Source: Phorcus lineatus
Taxonomy: Eukaryota; Mollusca; Gastropoda; Trochida; Trochidae
Length of the DNA: 64,000 bases
Direction: 5' to 3'
Assembly (NCBI GenBank): GCA_921293015.1
Contig: OV121086.1
Coordinates: 28,010,254 to 28,074,253, forward strand
Below, one piece after another: positions 13,971-39,037 of the stretch; the first letter of the stretch is position 1; each line of letters starts with the position of its first letter. Position numbers and translations under genes: made by a program. A model generated the notes under the pieces. That model did not search any database. It was not told the origin of the DNA and saw only the letters and a list, made by a program, of their open reading frames with translations.

Positions 13971-14166
13971 TTATACAACAGTTCCAGTGACGGGTGTCTG
14001 CAGAAGAACGATATGCCGGTGCTGGTATCTGACCCCGTCGGCAAGGTGATGGTCCACCAGTTCTTTCAGGGTAAATGCTTCTTTCTGATCCTTATACAGG
14101 AAGTACTTCATCCCGGCATAGCTTCTCCGTTTCTTGATCAGGAACGTCATTAATGATCCACAATAT
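13971..14166 (-). CDS. Gene A exon 7: C-terminal half of SH2 and stop
   Basis: 196 nt, last exon, TAA at 13973-13971. It carries MKYFLYKDQ, FTLKELVDHH and LADG, matching the SH2 pattern F.sLqeLVehY...DGL. The protein ends 15-20 residues later at LLQTPVTGTVV. The same exon is nearly identical in genes B and C. Confidence 0.87.
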
Positions 14167-17100
14167 CTTGCGAACAAATACAAGAATGAGACATATATAC
14201 ATTCGTGAAACATAATAAAATGGCTTTATGATAGCTGGCCATTAGTCATGTTAATGCAAACATGAGTTGAATATTTTGTTAAATAAATGCCTTCATAACC
14301 TATAACCATTGAATTAAATTATCACAACAATGCAAAAAAAGGTTAAAAACTTTATAACACGTGGTCCCTTAGCTGAAGATATTCATTTGCATTTCAAGAA
14401 AGGGATAAAGTACAATTTATCCAACTTTTATATCCTTCTCACAATTATTTACAAAATGTATATATATATTTGATACAAGTAATTAAAGTGATATAGTGAA
14501 TACAGAAATGGTAGAGAGAATCACAGGGTAGTAAGAATAGTGTACATAGTGCGATCAGGAGAAACGCCTACTGTTTATATTAAATGTTTGAACTGCTTTG
14601 AAGATGACATGCTTTTGAGAATCTGATAAGTTCTTCCTGCCACTTAGAAATTTAACTAAAGTAACGGTATAATCTTTTCAAATAGTTTTTAAAATATTTG
14701 AGTCTAGTTAATGGAATGAAGCTCCCCAACACATAAGCAAAAATGTGTATTCTATTGATCTTTATCATCAATGAGGAGATACGACAGAGTGCAGTTTGTA
14801 AAGAACACTATTTCGACAAATCATTTACTTTTTCTCTAGATGCATTCTGGATAAGAAAGAGAAAAATTGAAATATGTTTCGAAATAGAGACTTACATTAC
14901 GGTTATTGCTGGTTTTCTTAATCCTTTAAAATACCAGATGAGATAAGTTCCATCCTTTTTGTTCTTCATTGCCATCTCAGCCTTTCACAAAAATTAAATG
15001 AAACTGTTAAGAGGACATGTCTAGTATTGCAAGTGACAATATTTTTATACCACACAGATACAACAATGATATTATATTAACATGAATATCTTAAGACCAA
15101 ATTTTAAAATCTAATCGTGTTTTCATATCATTTTAATTGATTATACAGCTGCTGAACATAAGTTTGTTACAATTTTTATAATTCCTTATTTTGTAAATTG
15201 TCAATAATCATGAACATTACTATTTACAAATCACACTTTTGGATCTTTATGTTCTTATCTACATAAGTACCAACATGTGGTATGTCGGAGACATTTCTGG
15301 CATAACCAAAATTTTGCAAAAGGTAAAAATTCAAGAAATTTAGATTTTGTTATTCCTGCAATAAAATGTATAAGTATTGCAATTTGGACCCCGGTGTCTC
15401 ACAAATCTATTCACATTGTGTTCTAGTGGAATATGAATATAATATTTAAAATTTGATAGAAACTTGATATTCTTCATCTCCTCCAACAAAAACCATAACT
15501 TTTGGCAGAAAGATGATTGAATAAGCCGAACTTAAGTTGAAATCTTTTAACATGAAATTTTGTAATTTGAATTTTGAAACATGAATGTTTGCAAGTAGTA
15601 ATGTAATGTAATTGAATATTTTCTAAAGGAATATTCTTCAGCAGTTGTATTAAAAGAACAAACAGCAAACAATATTCGAACAACACGCAGATGATGTTGA
15701 TAGTGATATTTTTCATTGACTCCTTCTTGTCGCAATTTCACATCTTTGAAACACAAACAACATGAATAAATAAAAAATAATAATAATATTAATGGCACCA
15801 AAGAGATATTCCCTAAATAAATAAATATGGCATAATTTGGGCCAAAACTTTGTTTGTAACCCTGTTAAACACACCTCATCCTCGGATATTCCAGGGTGAT
15901 ATCCCGGCATTGAACCAAGCTCGTTGTCCACAGAGGACTGCATGAAGTCTATCTCGGGGTCGAATTCTCCTTGTCGATCAACGATCTCCTTTCATTTACA
16001 GAAACATGTTACCATATAGTTATAATCAAACAAAAACCCAACGCGTTTGTCATCGCTTTTATAGCCCATGTGTGTCAATAAAGTATTTGTAGTTACGATT
16101 CTGTGTATCAAACGGTTTTGGAACAATAAATGACGGGCTGCGAATTGGTGTATTATTTTCAATTTATCGTCTGAGAGAGTACAAGTGAAATCGTTTTCCC
16201 ACTTTATCTTATAACTTTGTATTGTGTCATTTATGTTTTCAAGTTGCAATGTATCGTAAAATTCCCTACACCCAGTTTTATAGTATATAGTATATAGCAG
16301 TATATTATATAGAATATATTTATAATATTGTAGTAATATAGGAAATTGTCAAATTCAAGGTTGAAAAATAGAGTTGAAATGTGGTTTTCATAGTTTTCAG
16401 AATTATCATCGCATGTGGATAACAAGGCTGACTTTGACTAATTAAATTGTTTACATGTAGTAAACTTCAAACACAACACAAGCATGTCATTTAAGCAGAT
16501 ATTTCCCATTAATGCCAAAAAGATAATACAATTAATTCATCGAAAAATTCAAATTTTTAACGTGTTACAGTTTGTTATTATCTATAAATAAAATCCAATA
16601 TATTTCTATACAGGTTACTAAGATAATCAGACATCCCTTATCGGGAAAAAGGACACTTTGTACAAGTAGACTCTCCTCTGTATGTAAAACGGGTTCATTT
16701 AAGACACAACTCAAAGTAGATGCGTCAAATGTAAAAACCTTTGTCTTCTTGACTGTCTGTGTAGTTGACAGATACGTTTTTTCTTTTGATGGTGAGGAGG
16801 CTTTACTTTTCAATCTTGATTTATCTCCATTTTCTTTTTCTGCATGCAATCTACCAGAGTATTCATACTTGCTTGTTTCTCCTGCTCGGAACTGGAAAAG
16901 GCGAGGCTTGAGAATGAAGTTGTCTTTGAAGTTTAATCCAAAACGGCGAGGTGTATTCCCTTGCTCGAGGGAGATCTCTGTTTTGTCTTCCTTAGTCTGA
17001 AATAAGGTTATTCGTGAGTAATAAATATTGTTTATCTATCTTTGTTTCTCAGATCCAATTTCTTTAGAATAGTTGGCCTCCTTATATTTCCGGCAAAACA

Positions 17101-20100
17101 AATCGAAAACACAGCTATCTGCCTTTGGTTAAAGTATATTACAGTACATATAATGTATTATCCAGTAGTTTCAAGGATTCGAACATCAATTCTTTTTGTC
17201 CAAGAGAGTCCAAGCCTATTTAAAAAAGGAAAAGATTTTCCATATAAAATTTGCAAGTTAGAACGAGAAAATAAAGAACTGATAAGTTATACTACGGTGG
17301 TAACTACATTATCGACAAGAAGGAATAATTAATAGACCGATCCAGCCTGTCAATCATATCTCGCGCATGCGTGATTTCAGCCAATCAGAGCGGCGATAGC
17401 ACCATGCTAATATGTCAACTGTACTTCCGGGGACAAACAAACCGATAATGGCGATATGTTTCGGTGGTTGCACGTATTGTTAACAATAACATTCTATGAT
17501 TCTACACACTTTTTATTCATTGATGTCACGACATATGTATTCTCGAGGTGTTAGGTATCTAGGATTATCGATTTTAATCGATGAATTTGTGAAAAAGGGG
17601 CAACAATTAGTAAAAACCAATCGCGAGTCGGATGAGTGCTCGGAGGTGAGAAATTGCAAGAATTGTACACTTTTCAAAGTGCTCTAAGATAATTCTAAAA
17701 GGGTGACAGCTCTAAAATGCTTTTGACAATGTCACTTTATGACCTCAAGATTTTAAATCAAGAACCCTTTTAAGTTGGTTAAGATTAAGTTTTTGCGATT
17801 TTACCTGATAACATTTGGGTAAGTTTCCTGTCAAGTTTTGTCATATTGTAAATAAACACTGTGTTGTGCAAAATATCTCATTAAACTATAATTTGAAAAT
17901 AAAAATAAAAACCAACTCAGTCACGGGATATGATTCTATATGATACTTTGTCACATATTATGTTTCCAAGAATCATGCTCCAGGTGGTAATTAATTAATG
18001 TATGTAATAATCAAGCAAAATGTCTCATTTGTTTTCATGAATATGAAACTAGATAACACAAAACTAAAAAATAATCTTTCCTTTCAGAGTTTGTGATGCA
18101 TTTGAATCAACTTTCATCATGAATGATCTGTATGTAACAAGGGATATATTTACACAAATAATAATATGATAAATGAAGTTATAGATATTTATAAGTTTAA
18201 ACTTGAAATGATATATATAATATAATTTCACAAAAGAATCTTGTTGCAGCTAAAACATCCATTGACTGATGAATATTATTTTCCCAATCCGGTTACTATC
18301 TTTGTCATTTTGAAACCTGGAAAACATAAACAACCATTATTTCATAAATTCCAAATACATTTCAATGAGAGGCTGTATCTTTTGAAATTAATATGTTATT
18401 TTCATCTTTTCTCTTAGGCCTATAAAATAATTTAAATTGGATATCTAAAATATCATTTGAATATGTCCGAATTCAGACTCAAAGTCATCACTGTCAAATA
18501 CTTAAAATTGTATGTGTCTGTACAAACTAATAATATATGAGGACCTATGTTTATCGTTGTTTAAAAATTTCTTATATTCATTTACTGTTTCTATTTTGAT
18601 GACTACTTTTAGTTTTAGACCATTTCAAATATTTGGCTCTCAACCTCAATTACTTATAGTTATTTCTGTTTGTGGAATAAACATAAACATTGAGGAATAA
18701 ATAGACAGGTTTATACACAGCCTGTTGTATATATTTGTGAACTTTGACTAACTGCAACCCTTTAAATTCTTCAAAAGAAAGTTAATGAAACGTTGATGCA
18801 ACTTTGACTGATATTTTATCGATATTTTTCTTATAAATTAATAATCTATTTGAATAATAACATCTTTGATCAACGTTTATAATCAAAGCATAGACAGTAA
18901 AACAGTGAAAGTTTTGCCAAAGCATTTTTGAATATTTTTTCCCAAGGGATGTTGACTAGCCCGGAGACCAATGAGTGTAACACTGACAGTGTTAACAAGC
19001 CTGAGTGACCTTGACCTATACAACTACGTAAAAAAATATTCAATTAATTATCATACGAAGCTTTTTCAATATAAAATGACCTACACTTGTTAAGTATAAG
19101 TGAGATACAACAATTTACTGGTAATAGTATGTTTTGTAAGTTTACAATCTTGTAGATTGTAGAATCATTCTCAGTGAAGGTGTTTGTTTACAAAGTAGCC
19201 GAACTTGATCAATCGCTCTGTTATTTCATAAAATTACTTCATAAATATTTAAGAATAAAGAAATTATGAATGTTATATGGGTTTTACAAATACAAACTTG
19301 GAAAATGAGCGTGTAGAACGACGTCTGTGAAAACGAAAGCCAAATGTTTTGGAAAGTGACATTGTTGAGTTATGCGGTCCGGCTCGCCTGAGCTTGAAAG
19401 TTGTCCACCAAAATATTTCAACCAATCACGTTTTAGGAGGCGGGGCCTAATGGCTCTCGACTGGATCGGTCTATTATGTCCAGGTTTAGCCGTTAACAAG
19501 CATTTACCTCTTTCGATTCTGTTTTGAGACAAATCTTAGGAGTGATAGCATCATCGTAAAACTCTTCATCGTAAAGACGTGCATACCCTTCTCGTTTTTC
19601 GTGGGCTGCGAAACGTTTCACAGTGTTATATCCAACCGGGGGAGCCTGTTGTGGGGAGTGCTCAACACAGGTCATGACTTGTCCTGGTGGGGCCTCATCT
19701 ACCAAGGTGTCATAACCATCAAATTGTGGGAGATCTGCGCAAACATAATCTCCATCATATGCTACCGGACTCACAGAGTCATACCAACTCTCTTCGTTTC
19801 TATCAGATGCTATGCTGGCATTTTGGTTACGGGACAATGCTTCAGAGTTTGAATATTGTTCTCTTCCGCGTGCAGCATCATTTCCGGCAAACCATGGCTG
19901 GCGATCTACCAGTTCACGGGTATAGTCATATTCATGTCCTAATATTGAATCATATCCGTCCTCTTGTGAACTTGGAGTGGTATAAACTGGCACGTTCATG
20001 TTTTGCATATCGAGATAATCACCCGTCATTCCACCTTGGTTACGAGAAGAATGACGACTAGTGGCAGGGCCGTCGGCCACGTCTGGTTGTTCCGGTTGCA

Positions 20101-22123
20101 TTCTTTCAAAGTCACTTTCGGTTTGTTCTTGGCTTTCTAGAAGATATGCTGAAAAGAGATAATAGACAGACAACTTATTATATCTGTTTCAATATCAATT
20201 TCAACAGCCAGAATACTAGAAGAAGTCGACTTACAATACAGCTTTCCATGAGTCAACATTTGAATGATTAGATTTGAATTCCATGTTGTACTTTGCCTGT
20301 TTTAAATCCCTAATTAATGATATTCGGTCATCTTTCACTACCAACATGCTTGTTTGATTTGACATGCAACATCAAATGCAGGATGATGACATTGTTGTGA
20401 ATGTTGTTCGATAGTCATGTTGTACTTGTACTCCAGCTACAGCAATCTCATATCTCCTTACATGTACATATTATCAATTGATTTCAATTACGTCTTATAG
20501 CATTTTAATTTTTTTTATATCAATCATGAATTATGTGTTCCTATGCTTAAGTACAAATCATTATAATAATTAAATGAAAACTCACCGAACGTTCTCACAG
20601 TATAATTAATGATAATACATTTCATTGATATCAACATTCTTACTTCATGAAAGTGCACGTTTCCGTGAGATTTCTTCCCCTTTTCTAAACATGGAATATC
20701 TAGAACAGTAAAATTATTTTGATATTTAACGAATGATATTGAAGTCATCACAAGTACATTTGTCTTCAGAAATGTATGTTACATAGAATAGATAACGTAA
20801 CTATTTATTACCTTTTTCCTTTTCAAACTCCTGAGCCAAAATTGATAAATCAATCCTCCTGTCTTTCAAGGCTGTTAAAAGACCACTGAACCAATTTTTT
20901 TTCTGTGCCAGACAGTCCAAAAGGAAAACATTCGCCCTAGAGCGTCCTTTACGGGTTTTGAGTTCGTCCTGGATAAATATCATGTGAAAATAACAAGAGC
21001 TAGCAATTGCCCTTTTTGTAAAACATCACAATACATGTTACAAATTCGGTCTAATTTCTCCTTAATGATCAAGTTAGTATTCCAAAAATCATAATGAGAC
21101 TAAGCCTTAGCTAACACGAGCTAGCACTTGCCCTTTTTAAAACATCACAATACATGTTACAAATTCGGTCTAATTTCTCCTTAATGATCAAGTTAGTATT
21201 CCAAAAATCATAATGAGACTAAGCCTTAGCTAACACGAGCTAGCACTTGCCCTTTTTGTAAAACATCACAATACATGTTACAAATTCGGTCTAATTTCTC
21301 CTAATGATCAAGTTAGTATTCCAAAAATCATAATGAGACTAAGCCTTAGCTAATCTTAACGCTCTAAGAAAGCCTTCGTATTTTATTAAGGGGTGCGGTT
21401 AATCAAACCATAGTGATACAATTATTTTGCACCTATTCGAAGAAAGATAACCATGACAATGAAATATTCTTTTATAATGGTAATAGCAGTTACATCGAAA
21501 CCTTACAATAAGTAAAACAAGAATTTCAGTTTAGATATCTTTAGAAATTCTTAAATTCCTTTTCGAAACCTTTCCCCATTGCCAGAAAAAGGATAATTAA
21601 AGGGGCAGTAGCACGTTTTGAACGACTTTCTTTACACAAATTTTCCTGAATAATCATTATTTGCCAAGTGAATTATTTTTGGAGGGTCAAATCTTCTCAC
21701 TTATGTATCCAATCATCCGTAGTAAAGAATCCATTATCTAGCAAAGACCACTGGCGGCCATTTGTTTGAACAACTATTGAGGAAGGGAAATGGATTCTCA
21801 TAGCTTAACTGATGGTAAGTTCGTTTTCAAGTTCTGTTAATTCAATTTATTTGTTTAAATTGAATATCGTGTTACAATTTTTGTTACCGTGAGATGACTT
21901 TGTGTAATTTGATTCTCACCTCTTGGTTTGTATTAAGAAATATCCCTTGACTGCAGAGGACATCGTACAACGACTGAGGGTAAACCTTTTCACAGAACGA
22001 TTTGGATATTCTTGCCTTCAGAACGTGATAAAATTTATGGTCGCCAATAAGTGGTGGTGTACATCTCCCCGCCATATTTTTCAGAAAGAGCTTGTATACT
22101 TCTTTCAGGGTCTCAGATAAAAG
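13971..22123 (-). CDS. Gene A: CARD - tyrosine-rich linker - atypical SH2 adaptor (7 coding exons)
   Basis: Spliced model, minus strand, coding exons 22075-21920, 20968-20812, 20148-19508, 16996-16739, 15988-15875, 14981-14896 and 14166-13971 (1608 nt, 535 aa). All junctions keep frame (phases 0,1,0,0,0,2). Residues 1-104 form a CARD-like helical domain; 105-318 are acidic and contain 15 tyrosines; 319-404 are basic; 432-530 form an SH2 domain (YHPGIS, then AE, DGTYLIW, later FTLKELVDHH and ADG). In this family CARDs make homotypic contacts in innate immune and death signalling, and SH2 domains bind phosphotyrosine. Here the FLVR arginine is Trp458, so canonical binding is doubtful. No kinase, caspase or transmembrane segment is visible, so a cytosolic adaptor or scaffold is inferred. 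Exon sizes match gene B almost exactly, which supports selection on the reading frame. I do not recognise a named orthologue. Confidence 0.82.
14896..14981 (-). CDS. Gene A exon 6: SH2 core with the altered FLVR motif
   Basis: 86 nt, acceptor gtgaaag, donor gtaagt, exit phase 2. It encodes the SH2 segment DGTYLIW followed by the next strand (ITV). The DGTFLVR consensus aligns without gaps, placing Trp at the position of the invariant arginine beta-B5. Genes B and C have the same Trp. Confidence 0.85.
15875..15988 (-). CDS. Gene A exon 5: pre-SH2 linker and first SH2 strand
   Basis: 38 codons, phase 0 to 0, donor gtgtgt. It ends PGYHPGISEDE, which matches the W.hG.IsR.eA opening of SH2 domains with Tyr in place of the usual Trp. 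The next exon continues with AEMAMKN, completing the alpha-A helix pattern. Acceptor aaatgaaag lacks a strong pyrimidine tract but is conserved in gene B. Confidence 0.78.
16739..16996 (-). CDS. Gene A exon 4: basic Ser/Lys linker
   Basis: 86 codons after acceptor cttatttcag, phase 0 both ends. Shared with gene B: FGLNFKDNF, GETSKYEYSGRLH and a Lys/Ser-rich tail ending TVKKTK. The donor in this copy is gttttt whereas gene B has gtatgt, so splicing here may be weak. Read-through would add about 58 residues and stop at 16565, removing the SH2 domain. Confidence 0.7.
17331..19474. mobile_element. 2.1 kb TIR element in gene A intron 3
   Basis: Bounded by the inverted repeat TAATAGACCGATCCAG / CTGGATCGGTCTATTA. 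Gene B lacks it: its intron reads aataattaattatatcc where A has the element. The target duplication is ambiguous (AT or TA). No transposase reading frame is visible, so this is a non-autonomous DNA transposon or a decayed one. A CCAAT-containing, GC-richer stretch lies just inside each end. Confidence 0.7.
19508..20148 (-). CDS. Gene A exon 3: tyrosine-rich linker
   Basis: The exon is 641 nt with acceptor ctcttttcag and donor gtaaat. It encodes residues 105-318 and has 15 tyrosines, most in acidic YD/YN contexts (GYDSI, HEYDYT, WYDSV, GYDTL, GYNTV, EFYDDA). Tyr149 lies in YLDM, the YxxM pattern recognised by PI3K p85 SH2 domains; Tyr203 lies in YSNS, a YxN pattern recognised by GRB2. No globular fold is evident. 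Likely a multisite phosphotyrosine docking segment; the modifying kinase is unknown. Confidence 0.8.
20812..20968 (-). CDS. Gene A exon 2: second half of CARD
   Basis: The acceptor is tttatccag and the donor gtaata; entry phase 0, exit phase 1. The 52 residues contain the CARD signature ANVFLLDCLAQKKNW followed by LLTAL and LAQEFEKEK, matching the later CARD helices (kA..LLd.L...g...f...L). The same exon type recurs in genes B and D. Confidence 0.82.
20990..21355. repeat. Threefold tandem repeat, about 120 bp unit, in gene A intron
   Basis: Three near-identical units start at about 21000, 21121 and 21240 (ctagca..tgccc to ccttagctaa), between CARD exons 1 and 2. Gene B has a single diverged copy at 37221-37345, so the expansion followed the gene duplication. 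Confidence 0.9.
21920..22123 (-). CDS. Gene A exon 1: start codon and first half of CARD
   Basis: The ATG at 22075-22073 sits in a good initiation context (aaaaatATGGCG). The homologous ATG in gene B is the first usable one because an in-frame TAA lies just upstream there. It encodes 52 residues ending NTNQE before donor gtgaga. The exon appears to start at 22123 after a 'ttctag' acceptor, which leaves 48 nt of 5' UTR. FYHVLKARIS and the SLYDVL segment correspond to the first CARD helices. Confidence 0.8.
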
Positions 22124-24332: not shown

Positions 24333-24420
24333 CTGAACTTGCTTGTGAGCTAATGTAATTCAGTGGAAAGTTTGTAGTGTATTAATAGTCACAATGCGGA
24401 TATATAAGGGAGATAATCCG
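24333..24420 (-). promoter_or_regulatory. Gene A putative 5' non-coding exon and proximal promoter
   Basis: A donor (gtaaggac) at 24332 follows a segment conserved with 39664-39745 upstream of gene B, including ACTACAAACTTTCCACTGAA. A short TATA-like tract (cttatatat) lies at the distal end on the minus strand. A 5' UTR exon spliced to 22123 fits, but the true start site cannot be read from sequence. Confidence 0.4.
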
Positions 24421-26222: not shown

Positions 26223-26246
26223 TATATATATATACACTTAAAATTT

Positions 26247-27459
26247 CGCCCAATAATTGCAGGCCCACAATGCCCTACACACCGCCTAAGCAATTTGGTA
26301 GATATCCTTCTTCAACCACTCCTTGAACATGTAAATAGTTATGTTAGGGACGATCTAGATTTTCTAAAGCATATTCCAGATAGAGTCACAAGTGATACAA
26401 TCTTAGTTAGCTTTGATGTGACTTCCCTATACAGTAATATCCCACATGAGCTAAGCAAAACTGCACTAGAATTCTGGATTGACAAACATCCTGAGTCAAT
26501 CCATCCACGTTTTAGCAAAGATTTCATCCTTACATCAGCTGAATTTATTCTAGAAAACAACACATTTCAATTCAATCAAAATTCATATCTTCAAATTCTA
26601 GGTACGGCAATGGGGACAAAATTTGCGCCAGTCTATCCCAATTAAGTACTAGCGTACCTAGAAGAAAATCTCTATACCACCATAGAGGAAAAATTCGACA
26701 AGGATTTTGCAAATGAATTCATCTTAAAATGGAAAAGATACCTTGATGATTGTTTCACATTTTGGGAAAAATCCAAAGGGGACATATACCAAATATATGA
26801 CATTCTACAAAACATGCATCCCAACATCAAATTCACAATGGAAACAAGTGAGATAGAATTACCTTTCTTAGACATACTTATCAAGAAGGATAATACTCAC
26901 ATCATAACTGATATTTTCCATAAGACAACAGACACAAAACAATATCTCCATTTCAAAAGCGCACATGAACGACATGTCAAAACAAACTTGCCCTATTGTC
27001 TAGCTAGGCGTGTCTGTGCCATAATTAGCAATGAAAACCTCAGGTCTCTAAGATAAGAGGAACTAAAATTTTCACTATTGCAGCGAGGCTATCCAGAACC
27101 TCTTATCAAAGATGGAATAAATAAAGCACAGGCACTCACTCTTGAAGAGTTACGTACTCCTAAAGATAAAATAAATGAGGACCAAAACACATGTGCCCTA
27201 AGTGTAAAAAATCCTATATTGGTAAAACTGAATGCCTAAGAAATAGGGTAACCTTACACAGACAACACAATAACGATAGCAGATACCGCTGTTTATTTGT
27301 AAATAAACATCTTTCTACTTGTGCAAATGGTGATTTCAAAATATTTCCTTTCTATAAATTATTTCATAAATCTAACATGAGCAGTGTCTCAAATGCACTT
27401 TTACGACTTGAAGAGTCCTTCATTGACACCTATAGACCCTCACTAAATAAACAATGAGA
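26247..27459 (+). mobile_element. Penelope-like retroelement, 5'-truncated and decayed
   Basis: The frame at 26247-27056 reads RPIIAGPQCPTHRLSN, LVSFDVTSLYSNIPHE, GTAMGTKFAP and RYLDDCFTFW, the reverse-transcriptase boxes of Penelope-like elements. TAA at 26643-26645 and another at about 27054 interrupt it. A GIY-YIG endonuclease follows in a different frame at 27191-27457 (CPKCKKSYIGKTE, HRQH, HLSTCANGDFKIFPFYKL). The N-terminal part is missing; coding begins abruptly after a short TA tract. Two stops and a frame change make it inactive. Hammerhead motifs flank it on both sides in inverted orientation. Confidence 0.9.
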
Positions 27460-27788: not shown

Positions 27789-27789
<1 letters not shown>

Positions 27790-27865: not shown

Positions 27866-27866
<1 letters not shown>

Positions 27867-27930: not shown

Positions 27931-27979
27931 GCATATGGTTATATATATAAACAGTGCTTTAAAGTGACACTAGCAAGCT

Positions 27980-28610
27980 CAGCGGACACTATATTCCAAT
28001 CCATATTTCATTGGTTTGCACTCAACTCTTCTACATATGATATTTCACCTTACTGTCTAACGTTGACATGCATGTAAAACAACATTCATGATTGGTTTGT
28101 CTTTGTCGTCCTAGAGTTGCATGATACAATCAAACATGACACATTGTTACTTTTAACAGTGATGTTGGCAACATCCCTAAAATTCACACGATAATCACAG
28201 GGACGTCTTTATTCTACATATTCAGACGTCAAGTTTGCAAACGCGGGTTCTTAATTTAAGATTGAATCTGATTGGATGCAACTAAAGTTGGTTGTGGAAA
28301 TTAACGACTCCATTTTATTTTCATTTGCGTCACCTACGGGAAGACAATCACCTCTCATTTTGACAGAAGCGGTCACGTGGTATAGCGAATATCATAGGCC
28401 TCATTGATGACAAGCATGCTTGTTTCTATGAAGCTTTTTCACTCGCTGAAGTAATGATAAGTTTGTATTGTTGCTTTTGCCGCTAGTAGAATCTACCGAA
28501 AGTGCGGGATAAGCTTAGAGCACAGGTTGGCGTGTGATTTTCCGACTTGAAGTACCTCTATGGGGAGAGAATGCCAATACCGGGAGTCGCATTTCTATCA
28601 ATCAAGAGAT
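27980..28610. repeat. Duplicated block, second part
   Basis: Homologous to 46385-47220 (ttcaccttact, aacgttgacatgcatgtaaaa, cctacgggaagacaa, gaatatcataggcctc). In the other copy it leads directly into gene D; here gene D exons are not found. Confidence 0.75.
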
Positions 28611-29479
28611 GTGCAGGGGGACAAATTAAGATTGTAAAGAGTTTCTGAATTCTGCAATAAAATAGTAGTTGGACACGTTTCGACAAATATTTGGCGAAAA
28701 TAGACAGAATTAGTTAACATATTATAGGAGACTATTATTAATCAAAATATGTTTTAAAATGATAATTGTTTTTATCATCTTCAAGACATTAGAGGCTTTG
28801 CATTTAGCATACAAATTTGTCAGATGTGATCCTGCAGGGCTAAGGGTAACATTTTTAAGTATGTGATTAGAATATTTTTTCTTCACCCTCTAAACATTTT
28901 TTGGGGGGAATTTAGATGGGATTAGTCGGGGGAATGTAGAGGGAACTAGTCGAACTTAAGTGAATACAATATTACATGATATTTGCACTAGGTACTGAAC
29001 TATTTAAACAAAGTTTCGTTAACAGCTGAATAGACTTCTTTACCCATGTGATATCGAGTGGGAAGCAAGCAAAAGAAGCATCTCTCTTAAGATGTAGTTC
29101 GAAGATTTCTATAATTGATTTATTGTTCTACAAACATCTTAGCATTCTTGAGCTATTCACATTTTTTCATTGTAAGGTTGGTAAATGCCACATTTCTTGT
29201 AGTACGGAGAGTGTATCAAATTTTTAAATTCACATTGCGGTGGCAACATAATTAAAGTTTCAGAAGTTTGTTTTCTTTATAGAACAGCTTAATGAAAGGA
29301 AGTAGCCATATTCACAGTAGAATAATCTTAAAGCTAAACAACAACGGATGAAATATTATCAAATCAGTTGTACATCTATTATACAAATTTATAAGTTTAG
29401 AAATTTCTCGAAGATCAACTCAATAAAAACCAAAATTCGCTATATCAAACAACATTGAGATTATAAAGCTTATAGAAGG

Positions 29480-32132
29480 TTGCATGTGGTGATTGAAATA
29501 TTGATCTTAGATGCAATTGTTGTAAGAATTCATGAGAATTGCCATGGTTAACAAACGTTATGCTGATTCAATTATGGATGTTACATGGTTACTTGATGTC
29601 CCCATTATCAATCCCTGACATTTATGTCTGTTAGAGGGAACATTGTCATGTATTGGTAATTGGTTTATTGCAGTGTTCGTGGACTTATGTTCTGCGTCAG
29701 GCGAAAGGTCAACTTTCATTAACCCATTATTCCGGAAATGGCGACGTGTACAGCCTAGGTTATAGGCTTCGACTTCAGATCAAGATGTCTATTGAAACAA
29801 AAACGGGCTGTAAAACTAAATAACCCAAGAGTGCAAGAGTCTCTTATTACATTCTGAAATTATTCCGATCTTTTCATCTCTAAAGGCATATGTGTTTGCT
29901 GTATAAAATGAAGTATAATGAAAACTTTTTATTACAAATTATTATTGATAGTATTTATTTAGAAAGTAAACTGACAAGCTTGTGCTAACCTGGTTTTGTT
30001 AGAAAACTACTGATCTAAATATGCAGGAGCTGACCACATTTTCTGCCAAGGCATCGTGAAAAGTAGATATACGGAAGTAACGATAGGAATGAAATTACCA
30101 GATTTAACGTAAAACAATCACTGATAAATCCAGGAGACATGATAAGACAGAGGACTTAAGAGACTCTGAAATCCACTTTAACCATTAGCTCTTTTCTGTT
30201 AATATATAAATAATCACCAAGTTAATATGCAATAAATATTCGGTAACTTTAAATATTTTATAAAGGTTGATATATATAATTATTTATGTAAATAAATGTA
30301 CGCTCTCGTGTACCTTCAGTTTTGCAGATGGATGAATCAAATTGAAAAATGTCAAATGACGCTGGGACTTGTTCAAGAACATTTACTCGAAACAGAGGTT
30401 TCTGAAATCATATTTAAAAATGGAAAGTATTTCTCGGTTTTCTAAATCCATTATCATTGAAAAATTGCAACAATGATATCGCCCCTTCCAACAATACATT
30501 TCAACTGATCTCTGTTTCCTAAAAATATGTGTGCAACAAACGAGTGAAAATCACAGTTCAGGTAAGGGAACAAATCAAATACTCTCTTTCAATTAAGATT
30601 CAATATCGCTTGCACAAGGAACTGTAGTGATTGACCAGATCATTTATACGTCAGTTAAGTTGCCAGAGAATAGGCCAAAGATTCACAGACTTTGTGCCAG
30701 TCGTGAATGGAAATGTTATGAAAATTTTATGAACAAGTTATGAAAATGTTGGATAAGATCATTTTGACATATATTGATACCAATTTAACATTGAATTCTC
30801 TTAACATAAATTCTAAACTGAAAGTAGAAAATATCGAAAGTAGATATCTGATTTATTTTTATTTTTGTTAAAGTTGTTATTTTCCCAAAAAATAAGTATT
30901 ATACATATATGTATTCATCTGTTAGATAACAATATTCGTTCAGCTGTGAAGGCTAGTATATTCTTGATACACAAATTTTATATCTATAGTAATTAAGAAA
31001 CAGCATTTCACATTATGTTATGAGTGTGGTACAGGTATTTATAGTAGAGTGAATTGAAATTGAATTGTACAATCTTTAGGTAGCTGATAAGGATAGTCAT
31101 AGATACACAAGATTTATGTTAAAAATACAGTAGTGTAAACATTTCAAGTATCAAACACTGATCATGTACATATATTAATGGCAAATGAATATTTTAATAT
31201 ACTTGTACATTCACACTACAAAATAACCATAATTGTTTCTTATTTATGGACAAGCCAAATATTTGTTGTAGAAAGGTCACTAAAAGTTGAGAATAATGTA
31301 TGGAAGGAAGACCAGAATGTGAAGGGCTTTTCTGGTTGTGCATTTCAAAATGCTATATAGCTTTGTAGCTTTAGATATCTGATTTATGAAGGGTTATCAT
31401 CCGAACTCACGACAAACCCCAAAATGTGGCTCTTTGAGGAAATTATGTTTCCTCTGAAAAGGGAGTAATTTGAAGGTTTTTAGACTAGGAATATTTCAAA
31501 TTCTTGTGAATTTAAGATTAGATAGTTATTTATTCGGGAAGGTCGGACGACGCCACAACATTAACCTCCTCCGATTAGGAGTTTTATAAAATGGAACATT
31601 AAACAACCGAAATTGGCGCTTTGGGCTTTTGCCGGTTATAACAAGAGTGGTTAAGGTTGTTGGGTATAGTTATTGTCATAATTCTTCACATCACAGCTTT
31701 TATATAGAACCAATCTTAAAGAAACACTCTGCGATAGTCATAACATATATTTTAGCCCTTAAACAGACCTAAATGCCATTTATGATGATAAGAATGTACA
31801 AAATCGCACACATTCGACTATAAACAGCAAATATATGACGAATGCTCGTTTTCAATGTGAACAAATGGATATGTTTTCAAAGAAGCTGAAAGAACTCGTC
31901 TAGTTTACATGAATTCTTGTGATATAACATGTCAAACACTGTCAACTCGTAAAAGTGTTTGACGACTTGAGATAACTTTCCAATATTACGTTTGCCCAAT
32001 CGACGCAAATCATTGTCCGATTAACGATCAATTTTCAGCAAAAACTCCGTACTTCTCACAAATGGCGCCTATGATAAAGTTTTGTTTAGTGTAGGGTGTC
32101 TCTTTAAGGCATCATTTCCTGAACACATATAG
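29480..32132. repeat. 3'-flanking duplication block of gene B
   Basis: Same block as 11700-13970, with the 515 bp insertion at 30857-31371. No coding sequence supported. Confidence 0.85.
30841..31387. mobile_element. 515 bp insertion with a perfect 16 bp target duplication
   Basis: TAGATATCTGATTTAT occurs at 30841-30856 and 31372-31387; genes A and C have the single uninterrupted site in the homologous 3' flank. The insert starts with a T-rich run on plus (an A-rich tail on minus), so it is probably a retroposon inserted on the minus strand. I do not recognise the body. Confidence 0.75.
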
Positions 32133-32328
32133 TTATACAACAGCTCCAGTGACGGGTGTCTGCAGAAGAACGATATGCCTGTGTCGGTCTCTGACTCCGT
32201 TGCCGAGGTGATGGTCCACCAGTTCTTTCAGGGTGAAGGCTTCTTTCTGATCCTTATGCAGGAAGTACTTGATCCCGGCGTGGCTTCTCCGTTTCTTGAT
32301 TTGGAACTTCTTTAATGATCCACAATAA
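32133..32328 (-). CDS. Gene B exon 7: C-terminal SH2 and stop
   Basis: 196 nt after acceptor gttcgccag. Contains FTLKELVDHHLGNG and ends TPVTGAVV. Same length and stop position as in A and C. Confidence 0.86.
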
Positions 32329-35300
32329 CTGGCGAACAAATATAAGAATGAGACATATTTACATTTGTGAAACAGAATTAACCAGATTCAAAGGGCTTTA
32401 TTATCGCTGGTCTGTAGTCATGAGTAGAATATTTTGTTAAATAAATTCCATCATTACTTATAGCCCTTTAATAACATTATCAAAACCAAGTCTAAAAAGG
32501 CAACATTTAAATTCCTTAAGTCCACATGGAACCTTAGCTGAAGATATTCAACCACCTTTCAAGAAAAGGATAGGCTACAATTTATGAAACTTATACATCC
32601 TTCTCACAAATATTTACAAAAGTTATATCTAAATTAGATACAAAACAATACAATGATATAATACAGGAATGGTTGAAAGGAATTTACAGGGTGATTAAAA
32701 TACTGTACATACTGCAGTCAGGAGAAACGCTTACTGTTTAGATACATATTGCTAAACTTCTTTGAGGATGACATGCTTTTGCGTATCTGATAATTATATA
32801 AGTTCTTACTACTTAAAACTAAAGCTAAAGAAACAGTAAAATCATTTACAGAGTTTCATTATTAAAAAAATATTTGATTCTAGTTAATGGAATGAAGCTC
32901 ACCCAAACATAAGATATAACGTATTTTCTTCTGGTGTTTTGGTTAGAATTTTTTTTCGACAAATGATTTAATCATTCTACAGATGCATCTTGATAAAAAA
33001 GGAAAAGATTGAAATATGTTTGGAAATAAAGACTTACATGACAGTAATTGCCGGTTTTCTTAATCCTTTGTGATACCAGATGAGATAAGTTCCATCCTTT
33101 TTATTCTTCATTGCCATCTCAACCTTTCACAAAAATGAATTGAAACTGTTAAAATAGGAAGACACCCCTAGTGTTGCCAGTGACACTGTTAGAGTTGTGG
33201 TACCACACAGACATATCAAGGAAATTATTAATCGTATATCCATATTGTTTTAATTCATTATACAGTTTCTGAATAAAAGTTTGTTACAATGTTCATTATT
33301 TCCTTATTTGAAATTCAACAGTTCTGAACAGTACTATTTACATACCATACTAGTGTGTTCTAGTTGAATATGAAAATAATATTTCAATATTTGATAGAAA
33401 CATGATGTTCTTGATCTTTTGGCAGAAAGATGATTGAATAAGCAGAATAGGTAAACACCTTTTAAGATGAAATTTTGTACTTTAATTTTGAAACATGAAA
33501 GTTTGCAAGTAACGTAAAGAGATATTGTTCAGCAGCTGTATTAAAAGAACAGCAAAAAAAATTCGAACAACAAAGCAGCTGATGTTGATACTGATGGTTT
33601 TCATTAACTCCTATTTGTCGCATTTTCACATATTTGAAACACGAACAATATAACTGTACAAATAATAATAATACATATGGCAACAAATTGATGTCCACCA
33701 AATAAAGAAATATCGCATTATTTGACCAAGAACTTGTTTGTAAACCTGTTAAGCACACCTCATCCTTGGATATTCCAGGGTGATATCCCGGCATCAAACC
33801 AAGCTCGTTGTCCACTGAGGACTGCATGAAGTCCTTCTCGGGGTCGAATTCTCCTTGTCGATCAATGACCTCCTTTTATTTAAAGAAACATGATACCATA
33901 TTGTTATAATGAAATAAAAATCCCATGCGCTTGTCATCTTCTTTATAGCCAATTTTTTGTCAATAAAGTGTTTGTAGGTAGGATTCTGCGTATCAAACGG
34001 TTTTGTAACCGTAATTGAGGGGATTTGGGATTGGTGTATTATTTTACATTTTCCTTCTGAGAGAGTACAAGTTAAATCTTGTTTCCACTTTATTTTGTAA
34101 CTTTGTTTCATGTCATTTATGGTTTTGAGTTGCAACGTATCATAAAGAATTCCCTACATCCAGTTTTATTTCCTGTTAGATTTTTAAGGAAATAAGGTTT
34201 GGGTTGCTTACAGTATGTGGCAATATTTTATGATTATATGTATCGTTTTACTGCCGCGAGGACACTATGAGTATCATCCTTAAGTATTTTATAGGAACAT
34301 ATTTATTTCCTCTATTTAAAAATCTTAAGTGGTCGAATGATGGTAGAACAATTCCAACTAAACCGGGCAACGTATTTTAGTACATAAGCAACAAGTTCGT
34401 AGTAATGAAAGAAACTTTTGTTAAGCAGCGGTATCTTAAATCTGTTTTTAACAGCTTACAATTTTTGTGTGAAATAAAATTGTAAATTGTCAAATTCAAG
34501 GTTAAAAAAGGTTTCTTGGTTAAAACGTAGTTTTCAGATTTTTCATCGGATGTAGATAACAAAGCTGACTTTGACTGATTATAACGTTTTCATATGAGAA
34601 AAACTTCAAACACAACACTAGCATGTCATTTAAGCAGATATTCCCCATTAATACCACAAAAGATATTTCATGCAGCAATACAATCATTTCATCGAAGAAT
34701 ATATATTATAAAAATATTAGTTGGTAATTATCTATATAAAAATTCCCATATATATTTCTATACAGGTTAGTAAAATTATCGGACATCCCTTATCGGGAAA
34801 AAGGACACTTTGTACAAGTAGATATCTTGTAATGGTGTAAAACGGCAAGTTTAAATGTACATACCTTGGTATTCTTGACAGTCTGTTTAGTTGACGGATA
34901 ATTTTTCTCTTTAGGCGCTGAGGAGGCTTTACTTTTCAATTTTGGTTTATCTCCCTTGTCTTTTTCTGAATGCAATCTACCAGAGTATTCATACTTGCTT
35001 GTTTCTCCTGTCTCACGGGACTGGACAAACGGGCGACGCTTAAGAAAGAAGTTGTCTTTGAAGTTTAATCCAAAATGACAAGGTGTATTCTCTTGCCCGA
35101 GGGAGTCGATCTCTGTTAGGCCTTCCTTAGTCTAAAATAAGATTATTAGTGAGTGATAAATATTGTTTATCCATTTTTGTTTCTGAGATCCAAATTATTT
35201 AGAACAGTTTGCCTCCTTCTAGGTCAGGCACATGTGTCTTCTCAACGACAAATCAAGTTTAAAACACAGCCATCATCCTTCACGTAAAAGCATATCTTTA

Positions 35301-38300
35301 CTACTATACATTGAATGTACTATCCAGAATTGTCAAAGATTTGAGCATTAATTCTTTTTGTCCAAGAAGGGGTACCTAGAGGAAAAGATCATTTTTAATT
35401 TCAGTGAGAACGAGAAAATAAAGTGGTAAGTGATATCACAACTATATATTTTTTTCAGTGGCACATCTTTATTATATTTATATCATCGTCAAGAAGAAAT
35501 ACTTTTTCATAATCAGGTTTAGCCATTAACCAAAACTAACCTTTTTCATTTTGAGACAAATCTGAGGAGTGATAATATTATCGTAAGTCTCTTCATCGTA
35601 AAGACGTGCATATTTTCCAAGTGAGAACGAGAATTTAAACAACTGGTAAGTTATATCGAATTTATAGGCTTTTGTCAGTGGCCATTTTTTATTATAATTA
35701 CATTACCTAAAAAAAGAAATAATTAATTATATCCACGTTTAACCATCAACAAACCTCTTTGGATTCCGTTTTGAGACGAATCTGAGGAGTGATAGCATCA
35801 TCGTAAAATTCTTCATAGTAAAGACGTGCATATCCTTCTCTATCTTCGTGGACAGCAGAACGTTTCACAGTGTTATATCCCAACAGAGAAGCGTGTTGTG
35901 GTGATTGCTCATCACAGTTCATGACTTGTCCTGGAGGGGCCTCATCTGGCAACGTGTCATAACCATCAAATTGTGGGAGATCTACACCAACAGGAGCTCC
36001 ATCATATGCTGCCGGACTCAAAGACTCATTCCAACTCTCTTCATTTCTATCAGATGCTATGCTGGCATCATGATTATTAGAAAATGCTTCTGCTTTTGAA
36101 TCGCGTTCTCTTCTACGTGCAGAACCATGTCCAGCACCTCGTGCCGAGCTTTCTACCAGATCACGGGTATTTACATAGGCGTGTCCATATATCGAATCGT
36201 GTACGTCCTCTTGTGAACTTGGAGTGGTAAGAAAAGAGAGGTTCCTGTGTTGTATTTTGTGAGAATCACCCCTACTTCCTCCTTGGGTTTGAGAAGAATG
36301 AGGACTAGTGACAGGACCGTCGGCCACGACTGATTGTCCCGGATGTATGCTTTCATAGTCACTTTGGGTTAGGTCTTGGGTTTCTAATAGATAGGCTGCA
36401 AAGTGAAATTGGACAGACAACGTAGTATATGTGTTTAAACACCTTCGATCTCAGTTTTAACAGCTAGAATACTAGAAGAACTCAGCTATCAACAAAGCTT
36501 TCGTGATAATAGGGGCCAACATTTGAATGCTTCGATTGAAATTCCATGTCATACTTTGCCTGTTTTAAATCACCAATTAATGAAATCAGTAATATTTCAC
36601 TACCAACACGCATTTTTTATATGATTGAAATAACATGCAATATCAAATATAGGATGATGACATTGTTGTGAATACTACAGGAATCGCATATGTCCTTGCA
36701 TAATATCCATTGATTTCAATAACGTCACATATCATTTCATTTTATTTCAATCAATATTTATATAATCAAATGATATGTTACTTATAGTTACACATCATAA
36801 AATGAAAAGTTTACGCACAGAACGTTCTCACAGTATAATTTGTGATAAAGTACAAGACTTTGAGAATATCAACTTACTTTTTTAATGAAAGTGCACGTTT
36901 TGGTGACAATTCTTTCACCTTTATTGAACATTAAAATTATTTTGATATCTTAAGAAATTTATTGAAGCCATCACAAGCACATTGGTTTTCAATAACGTTT
37001 GTTATGAATATATCGACAAAAAAGTTACCTAAATATTTATTACCTTTTTCCTTTTCAAAAGTTTGTGCCAAAAATGCCAAACCAATTCTTTTGTCTCTCA
37101 ATGCCGTTAAAAGACCACTGAACCAATTTTGTTTCTGCGCCAGACAGTCAAGAAGGAAAACATTCGCCCTAAAGCGTCCTTTTTTGGCTTTTAGTTCGTC
37201 CTGGAATAATACCATGAAGATAATATCATAAACGAGCAATTGCCTTTTTTATGACATCACCCTACATGTTACAAAATGGTCGAGTTTCTCTTTAATAATA
37301 AAGTTAGTATTCCAAAAACCATAATGATCCTAAGCCCTTATATACAGCTAACAATCATCAAACTTTATTCACTCAAAAAAACCCACTTACGGTGCAGAGC
37401 AGAATAACAGTACGATATATATCAAACTAGACCTGTGTATCATGGCCTTAGCGCCGAGACAATATATCTCGATTCAAGTTTTACTAGGCGAGACAATATA
37501 CCATGGCAGTATTGCTAAGGAAGCCGCGAGACGATTATCATCACGATACCATGGTTGCGATACAATACGTATCCCGATGCTCTACAGTTTCATAGATATA
37601 ACATAAAAACTTATGTTATTTATCTGATACCAACCTGTCATAAACATTACATGAATGGAAGAATATAAATTAAATACTGTTAAATTAAGAATTAAAGTGT
37701 CAGAAATATTATATATCTTCTGTTCTTCTTATCCCAGTTATTTTTTCTAAAAACAGAATAAAAAACTAACTTTGTCAGTTTATAAAGTTATTTGTTTAAA
37801 ACAAATTTTGTAAATAATATCGGGATATATTGTCTCTTTTGGCGATACATCGATGTATCATGGACCCTCACGACATAAATATCCTGATATATTGTCTAAA
37901 TGTGTTTTGTATCGATGCACTCATATTGGGTAGTAGACGATGCAAACATCGATACTATCGATGAATCGTTACACCACTATATCAAACAATATACATGCGT
38001 CTAATGCACTATTTCTTAGCATCAATTGCAAGATAATTATAAATCTAGAAATACCTTTCATTTCTTTTGTACATTTAGGGGTCATTTTACAAAGGGATTA
38101 AATATTTGGGTATTTGCAATATTTTGGGGAATATGCAGTGCTCTAGTTGCGTGAAGAGCTTCACATGTATAGATGTAGAGAAACTCGTCTCGCATTACAT
38201 TTTGGTTTCATAGCTTACATAGGCATTCTTCCCTCGCAATAACCTGCCACCTGCCAGTCTCTATGGGTAGGTTATGATTTGAAGTGTGAAATTAAAGGAT

Positions 38301-39037
38301 GGAGATAGAAATAGACTTTTGTAAAAATAGATATCGTTCAAACTGTATTTTTTTAATGCAAAAATGCCTTATCGCTCTAAGGTAGCCTTCGTAAAATATT
38401 ATGGGATGTTATCAATCAAACCATAGCGATGCAATAGACTATCAATTCAATTTAGATATCTATACAATTCTAAAACCTTCCGAAATCTGTTTCCATTGCT
38501 AGCTAACGAAAAATTAAGAGGGACAGTAGCAGTTTTTTTTGGACAAATTTCTTTTCTCAAATTATCCCGAATAATTATGAGTTATGCCAAATGTATTACC
38601 TTTGGAGGGTCATTCACCTCATTAATCAACCCGATCAGTAGAGATATTGTTAATAATCAATTTTCTAGTAAAAACCACATTTTTGTGAGAACCCGTTTGT
38701 ATCGTTTGAGGGAGGGAAGCGGATTCTCATATCTTAACTGAGGATGGCAAGTTCGTCTTCAAACTGTTAATTCAATTTATTTGTTTTAATTCCAAAACCT
38801 TGTCTTAATTTATTTTTGCTACCGTGAGATGACTTTATGTAACTAAAAGAAACGCTATTTTCCCTGTAACTTGATTCTCACCTCTTGGTTAGTATTAAGA
38901 TATATCCCTTGACTGCAGAGGACATCGTTCAATGACTGAGGGTAAACTTTTTCACAGAACGATTCGGAAATTCTTGCCTTCAGAACGTGATAGAATTTAT
39001 GCTCGCCAATTAGTGGTGGTGTACCTCTTCCCGCCAT
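32133..39037 (-). CDS. Gene B: paralogous CARD - linker - atypical SH2 adaptor (7 coding exons)
   Basis: Minus-strand exons 39037-38882, 37200-37044, 36395-35755, 35131-34865, 33872-33759, 33123-33038 and 32328-32133 (1617 nt, 538 aa). Six of seven exons equal gene A in length; exon 4 is 9 nt longer. All frames stay open and every intron phase is conserved, so the copy looks functional. The CARD starts MAGRGTPPLI and continues ANVFLLDCLAQKQNW. The SH2 contains YHPGIS, DGTYLIWYH and FTLKELVDHH, with Trp461 at the FLVR arginine position. The linker keeps GYDTL, GYNTV and the YARLYYEEFYDDA cluster but has lost YLDM and several YD sites. The exon 3 donor is gtttgt, weaker than in A. Function is inferred as for A, probably with a reduced docking repertoire. 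Confidence 0.82.
33038..33123 (-). CDS. Gene B exon 6: SH2 core, DGTYLIW
   Basis: 86 nt, acceptor gtgaaag, donor gtaagt, exit phase 2. Trp replaces the FLVR arginine as in A and C; the following residues are YHKG rather than YFKG. Confidence 0.85.
33759..33872 (-). CDS. Gene B exon 5: SH2 entry
   Basis: 38 codons, identical in length to A, donor gtgtgc. Ends MPGYHPGISKDE, the start of the SH2 domain. Confidence 0.78.
34865..35131 (-). CDS. Gene B exon 4: basic linker
   Basis: 89 codons, phase 0, acceptor cttattttag, strong donor gtatgt. Shares FGLNFKDNF and SKYEYSGRLH with A and ends QTVKNTK. Confidence 0.75.
35541..35615 (-). pseudogene. Partial duplicate of gene B exon 3 3' end
   Basis: Minus-strand codons for YARLYDEETYDN and ITPQICLK repeat the end of exon 3 (35757-35840) inside the following intron, as part of a tandem duplication of roughly 220 bp (35395-35615 against 35616-35840). 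A donor-like gttagt is present, but no acceptor precedes it, so it is probably not spliced in. Confidence 0.65.
35755..36395 (-). CDS. Gene B exon 3: tyrosine-bearing linker
   Basis: 641 nt, the same length as in A, acceptor actttgcag, donor gtttgt. It has about 11 tyrosines against 15 in A. Conserved motifs are GYDTL, DEAPPGQVM, GYNTVKR, GYARLY and EFYDDAITP. GDYLDM of A is replaced by GDSHKI, and SWYDSVSP by SWNESLSP. Confidence 0.8.
37044..37200 (-). CDS. Gene B exon 2: second half of CARD
   Basis: 157 nt, acceptor tattccag, donor gtaata, exit phase 1. Encodes DELKAKKG through LAQTFEKEKG, including the LLDCLAQ helix. Same size and phase as gene A exon 2. Confidence 0.82.
37428..37979. mobile_element. 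hAT-like non-autonomous element in gene B intron 1
   Basis: The 552 bp element is flanked by an exact 8 bp direct repeat TATCAAAC (37420-37427 and 37980-37987), the hAT target-duplication size. Ends are an imperfect inverted repeat (TAGACCTGTG... / ...CGTTACACCACTA). The interior is rich in CGAT and atcgatg words; no transposase frame is visible. Absent from gene A. Confidence 0.7.
38882..39037 (-). CDS. Gene B exon 1: start and first half of CARD
   Basis: 52 codons, phase 0, donor gtgaga. The ATG lies in aaaattATGGCG with an in-frame TAA seven codons upstream, fixing the start for the family. It differs from A at only a few residues. Confidence 0.8.

Follow-up and report, generated by a model that had tools for sequence, protein, structure and literature searches.

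Three neighbouring genes of Phorcus lineatus, A, B and C, encode proteins in which an N-terminal CARD, by sequence of the RIG-I/MDA5/MAVS type, is followed by a tyrosine-bearing linker and an SH2 domain whose FLVR arginine has been replaced by tryptophan. The original prediction had called this domain order uncommon. The order is supported in all three genes, and no description of a CARD combined with an SH2 domain was found in the literature searched.

An array of seven-exon genes

Genes A (22075..13971, 535 aa) and B (39037..32133, 538 aa) lie on the minus strand of the window, the 64-kb stretch of DNA that was analysed, and positions 13971-39037 run from the stop of A to the start codon of B. 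Both consist of seven exons, with GT–AG introns and entry phases 0,0,1,0,0,0,2, confirming two complete genes with conserved phases. The third copy predicted at the right edge exists, but that edge holds the 3' end of a minus-strand gene, with exons 1-5 beyond the window. All seven exons of this gene, C, were recovered with the phases of A and B (C11:28082434-28072865 without the stop, 482 aa). It is complete immediately past the edge, and the idea of a truncated copy was rejected. The predicted local tandem expansion is thus borne out by three neighbours.

All 18 introns of the three genes are GT-AG. Identity among them is 82-97% in exons and 57-84% in introns, and the open reading frames contain no frame-breaking gap. 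Across the three pairwise comparisons, which are not independent, all 10 gaps in exons and 76 of the 260 in introns are multiples of three (Fisher p 7e-6). A full-length CARD match in the A slice crosses joint 1-2, and the SH2 match joints 5-6 and 6-7; joints 2-3, 3-4 and 4-5 are predicted from phase, splice signals and threefold conservation.

Table 1. Exons of the array genes and a decayed CARD copy (window positions unless marked C11)
Feature	Position	Strand	Content
Gene A exon 1	21920..22075	-	CARD first half, ATG at 22075; CARD_2/CARD match of A slice covers exons 1-2
Gene A exon 2	20812..20968	-	CARD second half; same match
Gene A exon 3	19508..20148	-	Tyrosine-rich linker, 15 Tyr
Gene A exon 4	16739..16996	-	Linker
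Gene A exon 5	15875..15988	-	Linker end, SH2 start
Gene A exon 6	14896..14981	-	SH2, GTYLIW in place of the GTFLVR type of other SH2s
Gene A exon 7	13971..14166	-	SH2 remainder, stop
Gene B exon 1	38882..39037	-	CARD first half
Gene B exon 2	37044..37200	-	CARD second half
Gene B exon 3	35755..36395	-	Tyrosine linker, 11 Tyr
Gene B exon 4	34865..35131	-	Linker
Gene B exon 5	33759..33872	-	Linker end, SH2 start
Gene B exon 6	33038..33123	-	SH2, GTYLIW
Gene B exon 7	32133..32328	-	SH2 remainder, stop
Gene C exons 1-5	C11:28082434-28075093	-	Right of window
Gene C exon 6	63793..63878	-	GTYLIW
Gene C exon 7	62609..62804	-	With stop (62804-62612 without)
Gene D exon 1	48900..49058	-	First half of CARD (RIG-I/MAVS type); D lies between B and C and is CARD-only; passes CARD_2 cut-off (E 4e-9)
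Gene D exon 2	48063..48228	-	CARD second half
Gene D exon 3	47457..47625	-	Short tail, presumed joint; stops here or splices on
Gene D candidate last exon	46804..46921	-	Ends AYDNLTSDYLE; phase fits
Decayed CARD copy	53083..53253	-	CARD first half; in-frame TAG, donor lost

With protein B as query and only the best candidates scored, the family was found at a single locus of the 958-Mb genome: of the 23 matches, 21 are the exons of A, B and C and the other two are single exons of two CARD-only neighbours. Other CARD–SH2 genes scattered in the genome were rejected, as 23 of the 25 best candidates matched, all in the array, and none elsewhere reached E <= 0.01. The array SH2s are absent among the 63 genome SH2 matches listed, unsurprisingly for a weak domain divided among three exons, and such genes elsewhere are therefore not countable by that search. 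The SH2 part alone gave 174 pattern stretches in viral_contigs, none confirmed as a relative; Rfam elements gave no match, and NCBIfam (a bacterial and archaeal library) no family for A or D. A block in the 3' flank is conserved in three array units (about 11650-12010, 29430-29780 and 60610-60890). Read for coding potential, these blocks gave short, partly conserved frames, with no named product.

CARD and SH2 domains

The CARD of the original prediction was recovered in A, B and C with CARD_2 (PF16739, E 5e-6 to 1.7e-4, 21.9-26.8 bits), but always under the 28.2-bit cut-off, and PF00619 scored weaker and likewise under its own. The CARD of D, 49% identical to that of B, passes the PF16739 cut-off at 36.8 bits. 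Despite their sub-cut-off scores, A, B and C likely belong to the CARD fold. A profile of the A, B and D CARDs, run against PDB sequences, found RIG-I (E 6.9e-5), MDA5 (0.003) and MAVS (0.14), and 16 of the 17 sequences listed were one of these three. The CARD of B alone returned the same names without significance (RIG-I E 0.05, a ribosomal protein 0.24). Among 22 rows, which included 17 other CARD rows of the genome (nine CARD_2-type, several half domains; eight PF00619-type), the five nearest to the CARD of B were CARD_2-type, and the sixth was tied with a PF00619-type row (phmmer, E 2.5e-4 to 0.06). Judged by these comparisons, the CARD of A, B and C is of the RIG-I/MDA5/MAVS type, which narrows the likely pathway.

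The genome holds nine RIG-I C-terminal-domain matches, seven with a CARD_2 match up to 50 kb upstream on the same strand, by coordinates only and not as joined gene models. Four CARDs of a RIG-I-like receptor (RLR) cluster on C15 also have an internal intron. In the two read closely it is of phase 1 and lies about 5 residues upstream of the phase-0 intron of the array; since phase and position differ, a shared intron was rejected, and none backs descent of A, B and C from those genes. The original prediction made no mention of the RIG-I/MAVS type of the CARD.

The predicted SH2 domain was found by Pfam (PF00017), with weak matches. Slices of B (E 3.6e-6, 27.4 bits), A (1.7e-4, 22.0 bits) and C (1.2e-4, 22.6 bits) all exceed the cut-off of 21. 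As whole proteins, B is over it (E 4.4e-5), A is just under (E 7.1e-4, 20.1 bits) and C is not listed; exons 6-7 of C alone score 14.3 bits (E 0.046). Comparison with solved structures was not significant, the best being p85 (E 0.06 and 0.1); polyketide synthases and antibody light chains, which are unrelated, reached similar scores.

In all three genes the betaB5 (FLVR) arginine is replaced by tryptophan. Writing arginine for this tryptophan as a scoring control raised the C slice from 22.6 to 29.1 bits, which shows that the tryptophan occupies the conserved column. The usual betaD4 histidine is threonine in A and C and lysine in B, and alphaA2 is lysine in B and glutamate in A and C. The expectation that this SH2 reads phosphotyrosine thus finds no support in that form: with tryptophan at the FLVR position in all three, ordinary phosphotyrosine reading is unlikely. 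Human SH2D5 has a PTB domain and no CARD. Its FLVR arginine is also replaced by tryptophan, according to the available text of PMC7530234, as in A, B and C, and the array SH2 would be a further case of this substitution.

The linker and selection

Exons 3 and 4 together encode 18 tyrosines in A and 14 in B; the 11-15 originally counted agree with exon 3 (15 in A, 11 in B). Seven linker tyrosines are invariant across A, B and C, but tyrosine columns show no extra conservation: 7 of the 17 without gaps are invariant, against 166 of the 270 columns of the linker. Windows over residues 279-317 are 80-88% invariant, and earlier exon 3 windows 36-64%. The conserved block is YNTV-x11-YARLYxEEFYDD (YNTV…YARLYDEEFYDD). 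Its relaxed ITAM-like pair, YNTV-x11-YARL, is present in all three genes and occurs in 8.4% (A) and 6.1% (B) of shuffled linkers; no clear excess over shuffles was seen for this pair or for the count of YxxPhi motifs (fractions 0.06-0.09 for A and B). The strict pattern YxxI/L-x6-12-YxxI/L is absent from A and B, the two linkers scanned. TRAF, pLxIS and YxN motifs gave scattered matches only, in a scan run without a control.

Purifying selection acts on CARD and SH2 in most comparisons, and the linker evolves faster. For the three pairs, omega was 0.25, 0.44 and 0.34 in the CARD (N vs S Fisher p 0.0002, 0.03 and 0.009) and 0.20, 0.13 and 0.37 in the SH2 domain (p 0.0005, 0.0008 and 0.06), where constraint is significant in two. 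The linker gave 0.78, 0.90 and 0.71, and its contrast with the domains is significant in two pairs (p 0.001, 0.013 and 0.096). The last 23 residues showed no clear constraint (0.64, 1.63 and 0.46).

Proposed role and alternatives

Several known systems resemble these proteins in part. MAVS of vertebrates and oyster (CgMAVS) likewise has an N-terminal RIG-I/MAVS-type CARD. In the accessible portion of PMC5557890, MAVS is anchored by a C-terminal transmembrane segment and the oyster protein additionally carries a Death domain, whereas A, B and C have no anchor-like segment and an SH2 domain instead. RIG-I/MDA5-like receptors share the CARD type but carry a DExD/H helicase and a RIG-I C-terminal domain, neither of which gave a match at E <= 1 in the three array proteins. 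The adaptors SLP-76, BLNK and CLNK combine a tyrosine-bearing linker with a C-terminal SH2 domain, its FLVR arginine intact in SLP-76 and BLNK, and SLP-76 has an N-terminal helical module, SAM; the overall plan is alike, but A, B and C begin with a CARD match, not a SAM, and have the tryptophan. Some TRADD-N proteins (NCOA6-clade) bear TRADD-N in place of the CARD and a C-terminal SH2, a natural immune/apoptosis adaptor combination in the available part of PMC8195603. The DED-SH2 chimera, engineered along with DED-PTB (Howard et al. 2003, as cited in the available part of PMC2575513), joins a death-fold domain to an SH2 as do A, B and C, but is artificial, with a DED and a working SH2.

The maximum 19-residue Kyte-Doolittle hydropathy is 0.83-1.27 in A, B and C, with peaks inside the SH2 or CARD, so there is no obvious membrane anchor, and the products may be soluble cytosolic adaptors. 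In the proposed role, the CARD would join or be seeded by RIG-I-like receptors that carry CARDs in this genome, or by the neighbouring CARD-only protein D. Clustering would expose linker tyrosines, chiefly those of the conserved block, to a Src/Syk/Abl-type kinase, the phosphorylated sites would draw in ordinary SH2 proteins, and the adaptor's own SH2 would be a module for binding or holding that does not depend on phosphotyrosine. Of these elements, the phosphotyrosine-independent SH2 is probable and CARD-driven assembly fairly probable; the RLR link is plausible if tentative, and tyrosine docking more tentative still. As a whole, a CARD-nucleated adaptor in or beside RLR signalling is a largely inferred reading that we put at just short of an even chance. 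A scaffold joining CARD assemblies to tyrosine kinases, as originally proposed, is likewise something we still infer. Src phosphorylates TBK1 at Y179 (PMC8592830, from its available text), a vertebrate precedent for tyrosine kinases near the RLR pathway.

Alternatively, the proteins could be brakes or decoys that enter RLR-MAVS-type filaments through the CARD and cap or divert these, with the arginine-less SH2 inert or holding and D of the same kind. Regulatory CARD-only proteins are the model for this, and the unseen membrane anchor, the lost pocket residues and the presence of D in the array fit it. However, an inert module would not be expected under purifying selection, seen for the SH2 in two of three pairs, and the long linker is retained in all copies; we regard this reading as unlikely. 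A true bridge from kinases to CARD assembly, the natural equivalent of engineered DED-SH2 chimeras, would require the SH2 to read phosphotyrosine via other basic residues, as in the C-terminal SH2 of p120RasGAP (available text of PMC7530234). The two lysines aligned at alphaA2 and betaD4 in B would suit this, as would the redirection of kinase signalling by engineered DED-SH2/PTB chimeras (PMC2575513, available part), but A and C have glutamate and threonine there and the tryptophan is invariant, making such reading quite improbable. Nor do we favour two genes head to tail, CARD-linker (exons 1-4) and SH2 (exons 5-7): exon 5 contains a conserved ATG and all six acceptors of exons 5 and 6 end in AAAG, a weaker splice signal, but an exon 4 GT donor and in-phase exon 5 AG acceptor occur in all three genes, 12 of the 15 exon 5 residues upstream of the ATG are invariant and the domain order is kept throughout, so that a split is very unlikely. 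Least probable of all is that the array is recent, restricted to its lineage, of little function and heading to decay. The single locus (best candidates scored) and nearby decayed CARD pieces might suggest this, but all three seven-exon genes are open, no gap breaks their frames, and their domains are constrained.

A bolder form of the CARD-nucleated adaptor, which we consider unlikely, is a new class of RLR adaptor in which a MAVS-type tail has been swapped for a tyrosine-docking linker and arginine-less SH2, with D as partner; if true, viral RNA sensing would be tied directly to tyrosine-kinase signalling. The array would also be a natural death-fold–SH2 fusion, for which the counterpart found cited in the literature searched, in the available text, is engineered only. 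It touches the open question of RLR signalling in animals that apparently lack MAVS: in the available part of an Aplysia immunome study (PMC9334734), no MAVS or STING was found, and a divergent MAVS-like protein or a new axis was speculated. In this genome, where nine RIG-I C-terminal domains were matched, A, B and C offer a concrete candidate: a putatively soluble adaptor that combines a CARD of the RIG-I/MAVS type with possible docking sites for kinases and a constrained SH2 domain.

Gene models and the array

The original prediction of two complete seven-exon genes with common phases, each joining a CARD to an SH2 domain through a tyrosine linker (genes A and B), was borne out by in silico splicing, which gave identical exon phases, by GT–AG ends at 18 of 18 introns of A, B and C, and by gap lengths. 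In comparisons among the three genes, gaps were multiples of three in 10/10 cases in exons vs. 76/260 in introns (Fisher p 7e-6, for pairs that are not independent). A predicted third copy at the right edge proved equally real: two 3' exons of gene C lie inside the window, and genome sequence beyond it completes all seven (482 aa, phases as in A and B), with a shorter exon 3 that keeps the frame. Identity among the genes is 0.816-0.965 in exons and 0.568-0.837 in introns. Splice acceptors usually end in pyrimidine-AG. All six acceptors of exons 5 and 6 end in AAAG, and despite this the SH2 profile match is unbroken across the exon 5-6 and 6-7 joints.

When protein B was searched against the genome (957,807,699 bases, 74 contigs, with the window at C11:28010254-28074253), 23 matches were obtained from 25 candidates scored, all in the array on C11. 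They comprise 21 exons of A, B and C together with a single exon from each of the CARD-only neighbours, D and D2. Gene D gave 14 matches (E ≤ 1), again all in the array, adding pieces of D2 and decayed copies. Its short tail ends AYDNLTSDYLE; in D2, a deletion in exon 3 seems to shift the reading frame. An LxIS string in D (ELPISCES; ELHISCES in D2) is reminiscent of pLxIS, a motif of MAVS and STING. A decayed CARD second half reads in frame into D exon 1, hinting at an ancestral tandem-CARD gene. Between A and B lies a copy of D's flank with a broken version of D's last exon, so a D-type gene was probably once there too.

Coordinates of genes and other features (window positions unless prefixed)
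Feature	Position	Strand	Remarks
Gene A	22075..13971	minus	complete, seven exons, 535 aa (spliced in silico)
Gene B	39037..32133	minus	complete, seven exons, 538 aa (spliced in silico)
Gene C, 3' two exons	63878-62609	minus	remainder outside window
CARD-only genes D and D2	49058-46804 (minus); C11:28096567-28094854		clear RIG-I/MAVS-type CARD in D
Decayed CARD halves	53253-53083; 49346-49068		one with in-frame TAG, donor lost
CARD second half and D exon 1	49253-48867		single ORF
Copy of D's flank	28165-28610		80% identical
Copy of exon 3's 3' end (YARLYDEETYDN...)	35612-35544		inside intron 3 of gene B
Conserved block 3' of each SH2 gene	11649-12010; 29432-29784; 60612-60887		units 81-91% identical pairwise
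Tandem array	49451-49925		self-matches stepping by 27 bases
Frames resembling reverse-transcriptase or retroelement pieces	26223-27457; 51268-52740		judged by eye
RLR gene clusters	C15:25410387-25479668; C13:40009681-40105417		four and three C-terminal-domain matches

The CARD and its relatives

The proposed Pfam check for CARD and SH2 divided: SH2 regions scored by themselves (slices) exceeded the cut-off in A, B and C, and PF00619 scores (14.3-18.1 bits) fell below theirs (23.9). Against CARD_2 (PF16739, the RIG-I/MAVS-type CARD) the three genes scored 21.9-26.8 bits, below the cut-off of 28.2; gene D, whose CARD is 49% identical to that of B, scored 36.8 bits (E 4e-9). Among PDB sequences, the CARD of B alone matched RIG-I at E 0.05, while a profile built from three CARDs (A, B and D) matched 17 sequences at E ≤ 1, best RIG-I (6.9e-5), MDA5 (0.0032) and MAVS (0.14-0.23), with one ribosomal protein (E 0.033) among the 17. 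In a phmmer comparison with CARDs of the same genome (22 rows, of which several cover half a domain), the five rows nearest B's CARD outside the array were CARD_2-type, and the sixth was a tie with a PF00619-type row. Because of these profile matches and neighbours, the CARD of A, B and C most likely groups with those of RIG-I, MDA5 and MAVS, sharpening the original interpretation to a RIG-I/MAVS-type CARD.

At exon level, the genome holds at least 9 matches to the RIG-I C-terminal domain (E ≤ 0.01), at least 19 to CARD_2 (E ≤ 0.1, five inside the array), at least 61 to PF00619 (E ≤ 0.001) and at least 63 to SH2 (E ≤ 0.01, none inside the array). Judged by coordinates, with exons not joined into genes, 7/9 of the C-terminal matches have a same-strand CARD_2 match at most 50 kb upstream, so CARD-bearing RIG-I-like receptors (RLRs) probably exist in Phorcus lineatus.

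The SH2 domain and the linker

Against the Pfam SH2 profile (cut-off 21 bits), gene B scored 23.9 bits as the whole protein and 27.4 as a slice, and gene A 20.1 and 22.0; for C the slice scored 22.6, exons 6-7 alone 14.3, and no match was listed for the whole protein. Since PDB matches of the SH2 part (p85α SH2 at E 0.06-0.1) were level with unrelated proteins, SH2 identity rests on Pfam. In alignments to the SH2 domains of p85α and PLCγ2, the W of GTYLIW falls on the FLVR arginine, the residue that grips phosphotyrosine, and its presence there in 3/3 genes makes the ordinary phosphotyrosine reading implied by the original interpretation unlikely. This is the one correction to that interpretation: the SH2 belongs with those that lack this arginine. 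As a scoring control, writing arginine for this tryptophan in C's slice raised the score from 22.6 to 29.1 bits. In the same alignments, the columns that we take to be the βD4 histidine and αA2 hold Thr and Glu, respectively, in A and C, and Lys at both in B. According to a review (PMC7530234), the human SH2 domains of RIN2, TYK2 and SH2D5 lack the FLVR arginine, and SH2D5 has tryptophan there, as in A, B and C.

Across three gene pairs, ω was 0.20, 0.13 and 0.37 for the SH2 (constraint significant in two), 0.25, 0.44 and 0.34 for the CARD, 0.78, 0.90 and 0.71 for the linker, and 0.64, 1.63 and 0.46 over the last 23 residues; the contrast of domains vs. linker gave Fisher p of 0.001, 0.013 and 0.096. 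The SH2, constrained yet without the FLVR arginine, is best read as a putative phosphotyrosine-independent binding module.

The linker has 18 tyrosines in A, 14 in B and 11 in C, seven of them invariant. Its most conserved windows are residues 279-317 of A (80-88%), and the exon 5 start (residues 401-425 of A) is likewise well conserved (84%). The former, with Y278, includes YNTV-x11-YARLYDEEFYDDAI, which looks like a relaxed ITAM. Because a pattern search found no strict ITAM in A or B, the relaxed pattern arises in 8.4% (A) and 6.1% (B) of shuffled linkers and tyrosine columns are conserved no better than others (invariant 7/17 vs. 166/270), we grade the linker as a plausible, putative tyrosine docking region. 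The copy of exon 3's end in gene B closes at a possible donor and is a candidate alternative or decayed exon.

Standing among known adaptors

As a whole, the observation of CARD-linker-SH2 genes was right. Its description as an uncommon combination agrees with the literature searched, where we found no account of a CARD and SH2 architecture, a weak absence as subscription journals are thinly covered there; the available parts of PMC2575513 and PMC8195603 likewise contain none. In related work, some TRADD-N proteins end in a C-terminal SH2 (PMC8195603), DED–SH2 chimeras have been engineered (cited in PMC2575513), lophotrochozoan RLRs carry grafted N-terminal domains (PMC8998645), oyster MAVS comprises CARD, Death and TM (PMC5557890), and MAVS is reported absent in Aplysia (PMC9334734). 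The mechanism of the A, B and C proteins is largely inferred; the proteins are a variant of adaptor kinds already known.
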